DNA from: Chrysoperla carnea
Taxonomy: Eukaryota > Arthropoda > Insecta > Neuroptera > Chrysopidae
Direction of reading: 5' to 3'
Length of the DNA: 64,000 nucleotides
NCBI RefSeq assembly: GCF_905475395.1
Contig: NC_058338.1
Coordinates: forward strand, 72,737,435 to 72,801,434
Shown: piece after piece, positions 34,113-42,088 of the stretch
Position numbering within the stretch: the first letter of the stretch is position 1
How the letters are laid out: the number at the start of each line of letters is the position of its first letter
The notes under the pieces: model-generated
The model's database searches: none
The model's input: the letters and a program-made list of their open reading frames with translations, nothing else
Told to the model about the DNA's origin: nothing
Position numbers and translations under genes: made by a program

Positions 34113-35046
34113 TTATTTGAAACATACTGGTCCAATTTCAACCCAAAATGATTGATCTGGTTTTCCAAAGTCACGTACTCCAATATCAGTAATTGGTAAA
34201 CGTGTTGATTTTTCAGTAGCATATGTCAAAACGGTTTTGGCCCATTCAGGTTTACGGAACTATAACCGATATATTATTAGATGAATAAAAAAATTCCTAA
34301 AATTATGTTTTCTCATTGCTACTTACCCGACAATCGTCTTCAATCATTTCGTATCGTAATCTTTGATTGCCTCTTGGTGTTATTTCTGCATCATTCCATG
34401 ACATCAATTTAATACCTTTACGGTAAGTTCGTTTTTCTGCATCAAAATATGCGACGGAATTTTTGCAGTGGTATGTTATATTTTGTTGAGCACTCTCTGC
34501 GAGTAGTTGTAAGAAATTGATTTGGCTGCTATCTGCTTTATACGTTATCTAAAAAGAAATTGCCTCAGTTATAAGAAAATTATTTTCGTAACAGAAAAAG
34601 TAAATAGTTTAAGGAAAAAGTTGCTCAAGGCCTTGGTATAATTAATAATTTTACCTTTAGACCACCAGATATTTCTCCGAGCCAAATTTCTTGTTCGTTT
34701 CCTTCATATACTATTTCTGGGCTACGAGTTGGACTTGGATATACACATGTTGTATGTGCTTCTTTATTACAATAAACCATAATAGCATCTCGCATATCAC
34801 CCTCATTTGGATCAATCCAATAGTCACCCGATGAGAAGTCAGGATGCGCTACAAAAATATCTCGGCAAGTTTTTCCTGGAGAATGTTTCTGACCATCTGG
34901 TGATCTGAACTTTTCAAAGGATGCTTTCAATTGTTCGTAAGCTTTGAGAACTAATTCACGTCGTTCTTTTTCAGTTATTTCTTTTCCAAATATTCGAAGT
35001 GGTTCATCACCTTGTGGATCAGGTCCTTTATTATTATTTATTTGAC
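34113..35046 (-). other. COLFI C-propeptide domain of the collagen
   Basis: The last three exons encode the trimerisation domain removed by procollagen C-proteinase. Landmarks: [18 protein letters not shown] (calcium-binding loop), [30 protein letters not shown] with the conserved glycosylation site NIT, EDDCR, and [12 protein letters not shown] at the end. Six cysteines remain of the usual eight; positions 2 and 3, which link chains in vertebrates, are Ala and Asp here. Confidence 0.9.
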
Positions 35047-38000
35047 CTGAAAGTACCGAGAGAAATTAAATAAATTTAAATAACTTAAAATAGCTACAAA
35101 ATAAAAAAATATAATACCTGCACTAATAAACGCAGCTAATGCCGTAGGATCATACATTGGCTCACCAGGAGGTCCAGGTGGACCCGGAGGGCCAGCTGGA
35201 CCACTGATACCTTGTTTTCCTTCATCTCCAGCAGGACCACGTGAACCTGGAGGGCCAGGGGGACCTTGTGGTCCCGGATTACCATCTCTGCCAGGAGAAC
35301 CTCTTGGACCAGGTTCGCCATCTTTGCCCGGTAATCCATTTGCTCCAGGTATTCCCTTATCTCCAGGCAAACCAGGTTGTCCTGGCAACCCTTGTAATCC
35401 CATTAATCCTCTATGCCCTTTAGCTCCTTGAGGTCCAATATCTCCATGATCTCCTTTTGGTCCTTCTGGTCCTGGTGTTCCAGGTTTTCCTCGGGGTCCT
35501 TGTTGTCCTTCAACACCTTGTGGGCCTGTTTCACCACGACTTCCTCTTTCTCCTGTCAGACCTGGTGGTCCATTTGGTCCAGGTGGACCCTATCCGTGAA
35601 TAGTTTATTAATAATATAATTAAATATATATAAACAGTTTGTAATAAACCATGTATTTTTGATATACTCACTGGTAATCCAGGTGGCCCAGTTGGTCCAG
35701 GATTTCCTGGCTGTCCTATTGGTCCTTTATCTCCTGGACGACCTGAAATTCCTGGAGGACCTTGCTTTCCGGACGGACCTTCGGGTCCATGATCACCTTG
35801 TGGGCCAGGAGGACCTGGTGGACCATTTGGACCAACAGGACCTGGTGGACCTTCATTTCCAGGTTTTCCTGGTGAACCAGTTTCTCCCTATACAAAAAAA
35901 CTCTGTAAACCTATTGTGAAATCAAGAAACATACTGCAAAATCAAAATAATTACATACCGGAGCACCTCGAATTCCTCTAGATCCAACGGGACCTGTAGG
36001 TCCGGGTAAGCCGGGTAAACCTCTGTCCCCTGCTGGCCCTTGTGGTCCTGGTTGACCAGCTACCCCTGGTGGACCTTGAGAGCCCACATCACCTTTCTGT
36101 CCCTCAGGTCCAATGACACCTGGTTCACCTTGTAATCCTGGGCTTCCAGGACGCCCTTGTTCTCCGGGAGTACCCTTTATTCCTGGAACTCCAGCAGATC
36201 CTGGTGGCCCTACATTACCAGGTTGACCCTAAAATATTAATTAATTTTTTGAAACACATTGAAATTGCGATGAATATTATGACTATGAAAAAAATAAAAT
36301 TGAATGAAAATTACCGGTAATCCAGGTTCTCCTGGTCTTCCCGGCGGTCCTGATAAACCCACATCTCCTCGTAAACCTGGTTCACCCCGTGCTCCTTTAG
36401 AACCAGTAAGTCCAATAGGACCTTGAGGTCCTGCTTCACCAGGATTTCCTGTATAACAAATGTAGAACTTCATATAAATTTTGTTCTTTTCGAAAATAAT
36501 TTAATTTGTATTATTTTTAATTTATTACCTACTGGTCCCGGTTTTCCCTGTTCACCCTTAAGCCCATTATGACCACGTTCTCCTTTAATACCAGGTAATC
36601 CAAATAGCCCTTGCGGTCCTGGGAAGCCTTGAGGTCCAGGAGGTCCGGCGGGGCCACGTTCTCCAATCGAACCCGGAGATCCCGGTTCACCAGGTGGGCC
36701 AGGTGAGCCTGGATCACCCCTTTCAGCTGGTTCACCAGGTGGACCAACAGGACCCGTAGGTCCTTGTACACCTCTTTCACCTTGGCGACCTGCATACAAT
36801 TTATAAAAAAACTTGAGCTTAATTCACATAATCTCACGGTGGAAGTATAATTTCTTCTTTAGAGTCATCCTTGAAATGAAATAACAAAGGTTCTATAGTT
36901 TAAGGATGTATAAGCACGGTAGTGGGAGCATAAATTTAAAAAATAAATATTTTCAATATTGATTATGAATTTTTCTAAAATTTTATGATATGTAAGATGT
37001 AAAGTAAGAATAAATTTTTTCGATATCTTTCTATTAATAAGTTTTTTTTTAATTTGTTTTCATTTAGTAGAAGTGAAAATTATCAAAAACAGTCAAAATA
37101 TGTCTTTTTTGAGATTTCTCCATAAGAGCCAATTTATTTTACATCGATTTTCAATGATTTTTTTCTTAAAAATTTGCATGGGTACCTAATTTCAACCACA
37201 TATTCTACCTATAAAAAAATTTTGAGCTTTTAAATCAAACATTGTTGTTATGCTTATACAATTCTTCTGTCTGATTATTCAATCATGTCTGATTATTTTA
37301 GCTTGGCAGTGTCTCATTTTGTTTAACATATGACGATGGTAGAAAAACATTAATCCAAGTATCATTTTTCTAAAAATAAAGACATGTGGACATTAAAAAA
37401 CAAAATTATAAGTCTTCCATAAGAACTCATTAAAGTGATATTTGGCATCATTTTCAATATTGAAATCCCAAATGCTTACTTCTTGAAGAATTGATTTTTT
37501 AATTTGTAAAATCAAATATTATTATTTTTTATCAAAGTAAATTAATTGAATAATGTTTTCCATTATTCCTACAATTAATTAGTTAATGTTGATATACAAA
37601 ATCACTAAATTCTTTACAAATAAAAAAAAATTGTTCTCACAAAAAATGAATTAAAAATGTTAAATTAGGCCACTATGGTTCTACCGTCCCCATATTTCGT
37701 GTACTATCTGACTCCACCATTTCTGAATGTTTGTTTTTATATTTTTTTTCAGACGAATAAATTTTAGCTAGTGTCTGACCTAAAGTTTCTAATAGGTTGA
37801 AGTTTAAAGAAATCTACTTCAAAAAATTTAGTTGTTTATCTATTTTGTTTTCATATACTGGCATCTTTTAGTTTTGTTTACCTGGAGGACCCGCAGGTCC
37901 AACAAGACCAATTTCTCCACGGTCTCCTTTTTCTCCACTAGGTCCCGGCAATCCTCTTAATCCAGGTAAACCAATTAAACCTTGATGACCTTGAATACCT

Positions 38001-41000
38001 TTATCACCTTTAGCGCCCGTTGGTCCCTAAAATTTTTGTAAACATAATAATTTTACTCATATTTATGTACAGTCAATGTATTTACAGGTAATCCGTCTGC
38101 GCCTTGTGGACCTGCTTCGCCACGTAATCCTGGAGGTCCCGCTAAACCAGTTGGACCTCTTTCACCTGGGAATCCTCTTTCTCCACGAGCACCAGCTTGA
38201 CCAGGCAAACCTGGTGGACCTTGAACGCCCGCTTCTCCATCCTTTCCGGGAGATCCAGGATTTCCGGCAACACCTGGCAATCCCTATATTGAAAATCAGT
38301 TGACTAAGTTCATACAAATTTTTCAGGATAGTAAAAAAATTATAAGCATTTACATTTTTAGCATAGAATACTCTGTTAGTATTTTAATTAAAAAAATTTT
38401 CTTACATTGAATCCTCGAGGTCCTGGAGCGCCCGTTGGTCCACGTTCACCATCTGAACCAGGGGGTCCTGGAGGACCTGTTGCACCAGGGGCACCGTCTT
38501 TACCAGGGTCTCCACGGGGTCCGGGTGCACCTGTTGGTCCTTGTTCACCATCTTTTCCAGGTTCCCCCTATAATATATTTAATTTTAAGTAATCTAATTT
38601 CTTCAGTAAATTTGTACAATACTTACAGTCAACCCCTTGTCTCCTTGAGGTCCAAGAGGACCTGGTAAACCTTGTAATCCTTGTGGTCCTGGCTCACCAG
38701 GCCTGCCGTCTGCACCTTGTATTCCTCGTTCTCCTGGATTTCCAGGTTTACCTACTTGACCAGGACGACCGGGAATACCACGGAGTCCTTGAATACCTGG
38801 GGATCCTGGGCGCCCTGGGTCTCCTTGCGCTCCTTTTATTCCTGCTGGACCTTGAGGACCTCTATCTCCAGATTGACCTACAAAACTTCTTTATTAATAT
38901 ATACTACCATTAATATGTTAAGGAGCACGTACCTTTTGGACCAACAGAACCATCTGGACCTGGAAGTCCTCTTGCACCTGCTACTCCTCGTTCTCCCTGA
39001 GGGCCTGAAGGTCCAGTCGGCCCTCTCATACCCCGTTTTCCTCGTTTACCCTCACTACCTTGGGGACCAGGAAGTCCGCGAGGTCCAGGAGCTCCACTTT
39101 CACCTTTTGAACCACTATCACCTTTATATCCTCGTTCTCCAGGGGTACCCTTTATTTTAAGATATTAATATAGTCAATATTATAATATAAATGTTAATAT
39201 TGATATACTCACAGGTATTCCTTTTGCCCCTGCTGGTCCGTCAGCCCCAGGTAAACCAGGTGGACCACGAGCCCCGGGAAATCCGGGGGGTCCAGCGGGT
39301 CCAATCCCACCTATATTCCCTTTTTCACCTGGTATTCCATCTTTGCCTTGAGGTCCTTGTGGTCCAGATTCTCCAGGCTGGCCAGGTCTACCAGATTCAC
39401 CTGAAAACAGATTTACATCAAAATAGTTACTTGATGGCTTTCCTTTGAACTAATTCCAAAATGAAGTATTTACTATACATTTGATATTTCTGAAATTTTA
39501 CCTCTAGGACCTTGAAGGCCTTGGCTTCCTTTGGGACCTTGTGCACCTTGATCACCTTTATTGCCAGTGCTTCCTGGAAATCCCGGTGGACCTGGTTTGC
39601 CGATGGCACCCTAAAATAGTAATTATTAATTTAAAAAAAACATCATAATATAAGTTATAAAAAAATTTGTCTTACTGGAGGTCCCGGTGGCCCAGATATA
39701 CCGTCCACTCCACGCAATCCAGGTGGACCAGGAGGTCCTTCTCTTCCACGTTCACCTCTAGGCCCGGCTGGACCCGGGGGACCCGTAGGTCCTATTGAAC
39801 CTATATTCCCTTGTGCACCCTTTTCTCCTAATGGACCTTGCTCTCCTTTGGCGCCATCTAAACCAGGGTATCCTCGGTGACCTTTTACACCGGGTAAGCC
39901 TGGCATGCCAGGTAAGCCTCGGGGTCCTTGTGGCCCAACTGCACCAGGCTGGCCTACTTCACCATCGTCTCCAGGAGCGCCCTATAATTATATTAAGTCA
40001 GTAAAAATCAATAATTTATGAATATTAAATAAATATTCTCATACATCTTTTCCTTGTGGTCCGGGTAGTCCTCTTGGTCCTGCAATTCCTGGTACACCAG
40101 GTGGTCCTGGTTCACCAGGCTCTCCTCTTACACCTTGGAAACCTTGCGGACCTGGTGGGCCAGGTAATCCAGGAGCACCGCGTGGTCCAACTGGGCCTAC
40201 TTGTGCTTGGAGGAATGGAAAAGCTTCCGGTCCTGCATAACTCGGTCCTTTATCTGCACCCGCTTGTGCAAGAGCCAATTGATTATAGTAATTGGTTAAC
40301 TGAAATTAAATTTCTGAATAAAGCATTTGAATTATTTCTCTTAAACAATATTACATACATCCGGTACAGGGCCAGGAGGTCCAGGATGGCCAGGAATTCC
40401 TGGTGAACCAGGTGATCCAGGGATGCCAGAATCTCCAGGTCTACCAGGTTCTCCTGGATAACCATTATCCCCTCTTGGACCAACAACAGGTGGCTCATCT
40501 GGATTTGGCTTGGCATCTGGAGTTGGCCTGACAGTTCTGGGTTTTGAAGTTGTTGGCTGTACTGGACGCCTTGATGGAGGAACATATGGTTGAGGAGTTG
40601 TTGGTGGTGTTGTCACGATATTCACATTTATCGCACCTGTCAGAAATTAAATGAATTTACCTAACAAGCTAATTCACGATCATTTAGGCCTACTAATAGG
40701 TAACATTCGAATTAGGTGCATATGAATTTTAAAATTTACATATAAATTATTACCGGTTGGAGTAGGCCGTTCATCTGGAGGTTGTCCATATTCTGTACCT
40801 GGAGTTACACCTTCTGGAGTAGCTGCAATTGTTCAAAGTGATTAAAATAAATATTAAAGCATTTTTGTAATGCATTATACATTTAAGTTTGAATTTTTTT
40901 AAACTCCATTTACAGTATGTCGCATTTAAGATGAAGACCTTCATATTTTCGTTTTGAAGTCGATTTGAAATTTTGTACAGTCATACAGGGGTGATGGGTC

Positions 41001-42088
41001 GCATTTTTTAAGATACTTAACCAAAATCTGAACTTTAAACTCAGCCTACTACAAATTGACAAATAAGGCAGATTCTTAATATTTTGCCTAGCGCCAGAGA
41101 ATGATAGAGATATCAAAAAAAATTATTATAAAAAGTTGCTTGGAATATTTTTTTATGCTCATATTCGCTCCGTGCGTGAGTTTCGTTTCCTTGGTAACGA
41201 TACACTACTTTAATTATAGAATTGTATGGATGTATATATAATTGTATGGATTGCATTTAAGACTTACATTGAAAATATAATATTATTGTCTCACAAATTT
41301 AAATAAATAATTATGATAATTTACATTTGAAAAATAATATTTGTGCAATTTGATTTCTTATTTTCACAATTTTTATATATACGTTTAATTAATTCGTGTT
41401 TTACAATAATTTTAATTTGACATTTCTATAACATTAACATGTAAAGAACTGCAAATTAGTAATAACAGCCCCCTTTAACGCCAAAATTTTTCACTGGAAG
41501 CGCTGGCATCGATTTTATTGTCCCTACCATGACTACGCGCACAACGAATACCTATTTTCGTGAAAAAATGCGCATTTTTAATTTTTTAATTATTTTGGTC
41601 TGCACTCAAAATTATTACAAGTAAAAAAATATTTGAAGCAACTTTAATAGTTTTTTTCGATATCTCTAACCATCTCTGATGCTAGACAAAATATTAAGAA
41701 TCGGTCCTATTTGTCAATTTGTAGTAGCCTGAGTTTAAATTTCACATTTCGGTTAATTATTTTAAAAAATGTGACCAATCACCCTCTATGACTGTGCAAA
41801 ATTTCAAATCGTTATCCCTATAGAAATAAAGAAAATATGAAGGTGTCTGCATCTTAAGTGCGACACACTGTACATATAAAAATTAAAAAAATGTGTTTAC
41901 TTACTTTCTCCATACGTATAATCGTAATCCCCATCAGTGTAATTATCATCGTAATTTTCATCAGGTTGTTGAGCTTGTGGTCGATTCAAATTCGTTGATC
42001 TTCGTCGTGTTTTTGCTAATTCTGCAGTATTTAACCATAAAATCAAAACTGCTAATATGTACTGCAGACGCCAGGAATAAATCTTCAT
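34113..42088 (-). CDS. Fibrillar procollagen alpha chain
   Basis: Secreted fibril-forming collagen. Twenty coding exons (minus): 42088-41905, 40822-40754, 40636-40359, 40299-40045, 39981-39676, 39610-39502, 39400-39213, 39149-38933, 38877-38627, 38567-38406, 38283-38086, 38026-37882, 36789-36529, 36448-36315, 36228-35959, 35887-35672, 35589-35118, 35046-34655, 34548-34327, 34259-34113. Phases agree throughout and give 1491 aa. Order: signal peptide (residues 1-25), an acidic Tyr/Asp-rich and Pro/Thr-rich N-propeptide without visible VWC or laminin-G module, a minor helix with RGD, a Lys-containing N-telopeptide, a major helix of exactly 338 triplets (1014 residues), a C-telopeptide, and a COLFI C-propeptide ([31 protein letters not shown]). 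Several exons are multiples of 54 bp (162, 216, 270), the ancestral fibrillar pattern; others split a Gly codon after its first base. Vertebrate type I, II, III or V identity cannot be assigned. Confidence 0.95.
36790..37881. other. Longest intron inside the collagen triple-helix region
   Basis: A 1.1 kb AT-rich intron with a phase-1 junction on both sides. No repeats or reading frames of note seen. Confidence 0.6.
40911..41873. mobile_element. Long fold-back element in a collagen intron
   Basis: The left end (TACAGTATGTCGCATTTAAG) and right end (CTTAAGTGCGACACACTGTA) are inverted. Inverted similarity continues inward for over 200 bases (GATTTGAAATTTTGTACAGT / ACTGTGCAAAATTTCAAATC, then the CTACTACAAATTGACAAAT / ATTTGTCAATTTGTAGTAG and TCTTAATATTTTG blocks). 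About 500 central bases are unpaired and contain no transposase. A second, interrupted copy lies at 5176-5720. Class unknown. Confidence 0.75.
41905..42088 (-). other. First coding exon of collagen: signal peptide and acidic Tyr region
   Basis: The ATG at 42088 begins a typical secretory signal: MKIYSWRLQ, then the hydrophobic core [11 protein letters not shown], with likely cleavage near residue 25. A basic RRRS follows, then a segment of alternating Asp, Glu and Tyr ([16 protein letters not shown]). Acidic Tyr runs like this are sulphated in vertebrate type V and XI N-propeptides; sulphation here is inference. Confidence 0.85.

Follow-up and report, generated by a model that had tools for sequence, protein, structure and literature searches.

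The 64,000-nucleotide window of the Chrysoperla carnea genome analysed here (contig NC_058338.1) contains a fibrillar procollagen gene on the minus strand, and the chain that it would encode carries two KGHRG motifs at the spacing of the helical cross-link lysines of vertebrate alpha1(I). The exon model, built from sequence alone, runs from 42088 to 34113 and joins 20 exons across 19 GT-AG introns into a single open frame of 1491 residues. All gene coordinates are positions in the window, and the features of the gene are as follows.

34113..42088, minus strand: fibrillar procollagen gene, 20 exons, 1491 amino acids (modelled as one open frame across 19 GT-AG introns)
40359..40636, minus strand: exon 3 with the minor helix (exon model; PF01391, E 3.5e-07)
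40249..40251, minus strand: N-telopeptide lysine codon (ADKGP), 18 residues before the helix
35158..40197, minus strand: major triple helix, 1014 residues, introns included (rat alpha1(I) alignment, E 2.7e-168)
39883..39885, minus strand: K84 codon, candidate helical cross-link lysine (VKGHRG), aligned with rat K87
36725..36727, minus strand: Ala codon (GCT) at a Gly position, helix 598 by helix count
35419..35421, minus strand: K927 codon, candidate helical cross-link lysine (AKGHRG), aligned with rat K930
35027..35029, minus strand: C-telopeptide lysine codon (NNNKGP), 20 residues after the helix
34113..35046, minus strand: exons 18-20, end of the C-telopeptide and COLFI C-propeptide without cysteines C2 and C3 (PF01410, E 1.8e-75)

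The predicted protein opens with a signal-like start, judged by eye, and an Asp/Tyr- and Thr/Pro-rich region, followed by a minor helix of 13 triplets (residues 137-175), a short linker, the major helix (residues 212-1225, 1014 residues), a short C-linker and a COLFI C-propeptide that matches PF01410 over profile positions 5-233 of 233. Helix exon lengths in fibrillar collagen genes are expected to be multiples of 9 bases; here exons 5-16 lie wholly within the helix, and all of the summed exon groups formed (8/8) were multiples of 9. Gly starts 337 of the 338 helix triplets, the sole other residue at such a site being the Ala at helix 598 (GEP-AER-GDP). A profile search of the 211 N-terminal residues at E <=0.001 returned PF01391 alone, with no TSPN/laminin-G-type domain and no VWC module. 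The PDB sequences that matched the C-propeptide at E <=0.001 were all COL3A1 or COL1A1 (5/5, two of them fusion constructs), a set that holds no clade B/C propeptides and so gives no comparison with those. The best explanation of this predicted layout is a clade A-type fibrillar procollagen. Its C-propeptide ends in CFK (Cys-Phe-Lys), and a C-terminal lysine is noted for several arthropods, insects and crustacea, in a passage of Sharma et al. (PMC5353611).

Counted along the protein, the KGHRG lysines are residues 295 and 1138, and along the helix residues 84 and 927, which puts them 843 apart; their codons are 39885-39883 (exon 39981-39676) and 35421-35419 (exon 35589-35118). A first-pass annotation of the window had placed the motifs at the same helix positions in the same two exons, and this was reproduced by our 20-exon model. 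It had also equated their separation with that of K87 and K930 in human alpha1(I), and the rat alpha1(I) helix, taken from the PDB 3hqv_A alignment (969 residues, C-end not covered), likewise has KGHR at 87 and 930, 843 apart. When the chains were aligned with phmmer (helix residues 1-1011 against rat chain residues 20-1030, E 2.7e-168, with one compensated 3-residue shift in the covered part), K84 stood opposite rat K87 and K927 opposite rat K930, arthropod helix residue 1 being paired with rat helix residue 4. Identity at X and Y positions at that offset was 32.9% of 644 positions. No other offset tried between -60 and 60, at intervals of 3, passed 30%; for three of them the values were 17.5-18.4%. 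The 84/927 pair is the 87/930 pair moved by one triplet, and an additional triplet at the C-end holds the total at 1014.

An exon model that would shift this spacing, through a missing exon or a wrongly built gene, was sought and found no support in the exon joins, the rat alignment or the exon groups in multiples of 9. Chance origin of the KGHR pair was also rejected, as among 20,000 shuffles that kept the X and Y composition at least one KGHR occurred in 759 and at least two in 15, and a pair at 843 in none (0/20,000). In a passage of Slatter and Farndale (PMC4450265), a lead of 87 residues and a tail of 85 are argued to be unchangeable, once fixed, without lethal misalignment. By the same count the window chain leads with 84 residues and trails with 88, its 843 and 1014 being unchanged. 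This points to tighter constraint on the distance between the sites than on the helix ends.

The stagger of the molecules was assessed with a score of the hydrophobic and opposite-charge contacts made when one copy of the helix is shifted against another by 150-760 residues, an approach that reportedly follows Hulmes and colleagues. The z-scores, taken against 1500 triplet shuffles, were summed at D, 2D and 3D, and the best D (the basic stagger, in residues) was sought in 200-253. It was 234.8 for the window chain and 234.8 for the rat chain, and shuffles reached the score within 233-236 in 3/1500 cases for the window chain and 0/1500 for rat. The window signal is carried by the 1D term (z 2.56 at 232) and the 3D term (z 3.43 at 703). 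With an alternative normalisation the best D was 234.8 for the window gene, 233.5 for rat and 221.7 for a second fibrillar collagen gene, gene B, described below. The signal supports a quarter-stagger design of the predicted window chain, independently of the KGHRG motifs.

Lysines in both telopeptides had been claimed as well, and one was located on each side. The N-telopeptide has a single lysine at -18 from the helix (ADKGP), with no other between the minor and major helix, and the C-telopeptide a single lysine at +20 (NNNKGP); the three flanks, from the minor helix to the N-lysine, from there to the major helix and from the helix end to the C-lysine, are all lysine-free (3/3). Along the chain, telopeptide and helical lysine are separated by 944 residues at the N end and by 950 at the C end. 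For metazoan clade A chains, Rodriguez-Pascual and Slatter (2016) describe a telopeptide XKGP, lysine-poor flanks and a helical KGH(R), in those parts of PMC5120351 that also name Apis mellifera XP_393523 and Anopheles sinensis KFB49448 among the chains analysed. The telopeptide sites of the window chain match this published invertebrate XKGP pattern.

A search of the genome (559 Mb, 337 contigs, in which the numbers given for large families are minimum values) for lysyl oxidase and lysyl hydroxylase had been proposed as a check, and both enzymes were found with their key residues in place. Lysyl oxidase was found at one place, with two matches (contig C1:79992203-79992884). Its exons join across the intron to WEWHMCHMHYH, which we take to be the copper motif, and the GHK and DIY positions are kept, their lysine and tyrosine being presumably those of the quinone cofactor; the catalytic domain is complete. 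It is preceded by SRCR, a combination that we take to be LOXL2-like. The glycosyltransferase part of lysyl hydroxylase occupies three exons (contig C1:124044701-124047010), and two catalytic exons follow on the same strand about 12 kb beyond. These are 64 and 68% identical to a stretch of human LH3 and contain the HxD...H...R residues (HHD, HPGRLTHYHEG, TRYIMISF). We infer that the glycosyltransferase and catalytic exons form one lysyl hydroxylase gene. The prolyl 4-hydroxylase alpha N-domain was matched at one place. Beside the lysyl oxidase gene, on the minus strand of locus L006 (contig C1:79990501-80000400), lie two similar open frames (L006 4241-4942 and 7964-8668) whose predicted products, by eye, look like arthropod ionotropic receptors.

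We consider it highly probable that the window collagen would be cross-linked by lysyl oxidase in D-staggered fibrils, telopeptide to helical lysines at 4D. The first-pass annotation had likewise called lysyl-oxidase-type cross-linking of quarter-staggered fibrils likely, and its prediction gains support from the enzyme genes, the signal at D = 234.8 and the XKGP telopeptides. From the sites, spacing, stagger signal and enzyme genes observed here, we infer the following course of processing, fibril formation and cross-linking. The C-propeptide would trimerise the chains and the propeptides would then be removed, after which the molecules would pack at a stagger D of ~234-235 residues. At that stagger the N-telopeptide lysine would lie close to K927 in a neighbouring molecule offset by 4D, and K84 close to the C-telopeptide lysine. 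Oxidised to aldehydes by lysyl oxidase, the telopeptide lysines would condense with the helical (hydroxy)lysines.

Several points weigh against this course of events. At some D in 200-253, 44/1500 shuffles match the window score (6/1500 for rat), and 2D contributes little (z 1.27 at 471). The telopeptide-to-helix distances exceed 4D, at D = 234.2, by 7.2 residues on the N side and 13.2 on the C side; if the alpha1(I) telopeptide lysines lie at -9 and +16, as we take them to, the corresponding excess is 1.2 and 6.2. With this larger excess the telopeptides would need to be folded more compactly than in type I, and it is possible that such folding makes the helical lysines reachable. A cut of the N-propeptide after the N-side lysine would remove that lysine. 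There is also the Ala at a Gly position of the helix, for which a substitution, an allele and an assembly error are alike possible; a second copy of the stretch with the Ala codon was sought in the assembly, and the single match was the window itself.

Alternatively, KGHRG may have been kept for another role, such as matrix-protein binding or a glycosylated hydroxylysine, without being used for lysyl-oxidase cross-links in this animal. Vertebrate fibromodulin binds at collagen cross-linking sites, according to a passage in PMC4825002, and sections of PMC5120351 have lysyl oxidases acting on other substrates, and other enzymes, among them transglutaminases, cross-linking collagens. Another role of this kind nevertheless leaves the joint occurrence of telopeptide lysines, 843 spacing and D-stagger signal unexplained, and we regard it as improbable beside lysyl-oxidase cross-linking at 4D.

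Nine COLFI matches were found at three places in the genome, one of them the window gene. Gene B (locus L018, contig C2:13382181-13387837) has a laminin-G-type N-domain and, in a model with one splice junction placed by hand, a helix of 1011 residues with Gly at every third position, K84 (in EKGERG) and a KGHRG at 924, giving a spacing of 840. Its first 202 residues align gap-free with a type XI alpha1 chain (PDB 9wxp_AC) in which a KGHR stands opposite K84; we take the vertebrate type V/XI lysines to be K84 and K924, K84 being the one seen in that alignment. Gene B is a second, type V/XI-like fibrillar collagen gene. Under the same stagger score no D-stagger signal was present in it, as 282/1500 shuffles equalled its score within 233-236 and its best D was 221.6. 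Gene C (locus L021, contig C1:73951477-73954976) has three Gly-X-Y blocks of at least five triplets in the 40 kb scanned on the plus strand, and these end within COLFI exons; the COLFI protein that it would encode largely or wholly lacks a long helix. In the genome, arrays of TTAGG, the arthropod telomere motif, are plentiful (458 matches, as opposed to 2 with the reversed motif as control), which like the CFK end of the window chain is in keeping with an arthropod.

The three C-propeptides found in the genome were aligned with those of human COL1A1 and COL3A1 (5 rows), the arthropod rows being:

window, 35046-34113: C-propeptide of the window gene
L018, contig C2:13386800-13387837: C-propeptide of gene B
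L021, contig C1:73953500-73954976: C-propeptide of gene C

Cysteines C1 and C4-C8 are invariant in 5/5 rows. In contrast, C2 and C3 are both absent from 3/3 arthropod C-propeptides, where C2 is replaced by A, G and L and C3 by D, M and K. In the calcium region D31, N33 and D39 are invariant, and the Gln of vertebrate DPNQG is E, L and G in the arthropod rows. According to DiChiara et al., in the main text of PMC6181919, C2 and C3 make the interchain disulfides of type I, and human chains able to homotrimerise keep both whereas those unable have one missing; the arthropod C-propeptides, with neither, differ from the human chains so described. None of the words insect, arthropod, Drosophila and Apis occurs in that main text. 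A tentative reading, which we hold to be somewhat less probable than its opposite, is that lysyl-oxidase cross-linking has been kept while the vertebrate cysteine code is gone, so that the chains might trimerise through the non-covalent propeptide interface alone, without interchain disulfides; its probability is lowered by the change of the DPNQG Gln, which lies next to the calcium site.

That the window gene is decaying or no longer fibril-forming, with the sites as a relic, is very unlikely: the Ala at helix 598, the missing C2 and C3 and the replaced DPNQG Gln would fit it, but the frame is open, the splice sites are consensus, Gly is kept in nearly every triplet, and the cysteine loss is common to all three C-propeptides found, with the other six cysteines retained throughout.

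Drosophila is not known to have fibrillar collagens, so the age of lysyl-oxidase cross-linking can fairly be tested in an arthropod that has the sites, a stagger signal and the modifying enzymes. What is mildly new here is that the helix ends are shifted while 843 is unchanged, and that the propeptide cysteines are missing. The phenomenon itself is conserved and already published for animal collagens, with Apis and Anopheles chains included in the relevant sections of PMC5120351. A literature search, mostly without full texts, turned up no paper on the cross-link chemistry of an insect fibrillar collagen, and the text of PMC2852846 gave no match for any of six insect terms.

Among known collagens, rat alpha1(I) (PDB 3hqv_A) resembles the window chain in its KGHR lysines 843 apart and its stagger signal at D 234.8. 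The two differ in the position of the sites (84/927 in the window chain, 87/930 in rat), in the telopeptide lysines (-18/+20 as against -9/+16, taken as the type I positions) and in the one Ala at a Gly position of the window helix. The type I helix is given as 1014 residues in a passage of PMC4450265, as in the window chain. Unlike human type I, the window C-propeptide is without C2 and C3. Within the same genome, gene B has a laminin-G-type N-domain where the N-propeptide of the window gene has a collagen repeat only, and a spacing of 840 rather than 843; type XI alpha1 (9wxp_AC) shares with gene B a lysine at the K84 place, there in KGHR, and the first KGHR lysine of the window chain is also at 84. 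The invertebrate clade A chains of PMC5120351, set beside the window chain as a published pattern and not residue by residue, are like it in both the XKGP telopeptide and the KGH(R) helical sites, as far as the relevant sections of that paper describe them.

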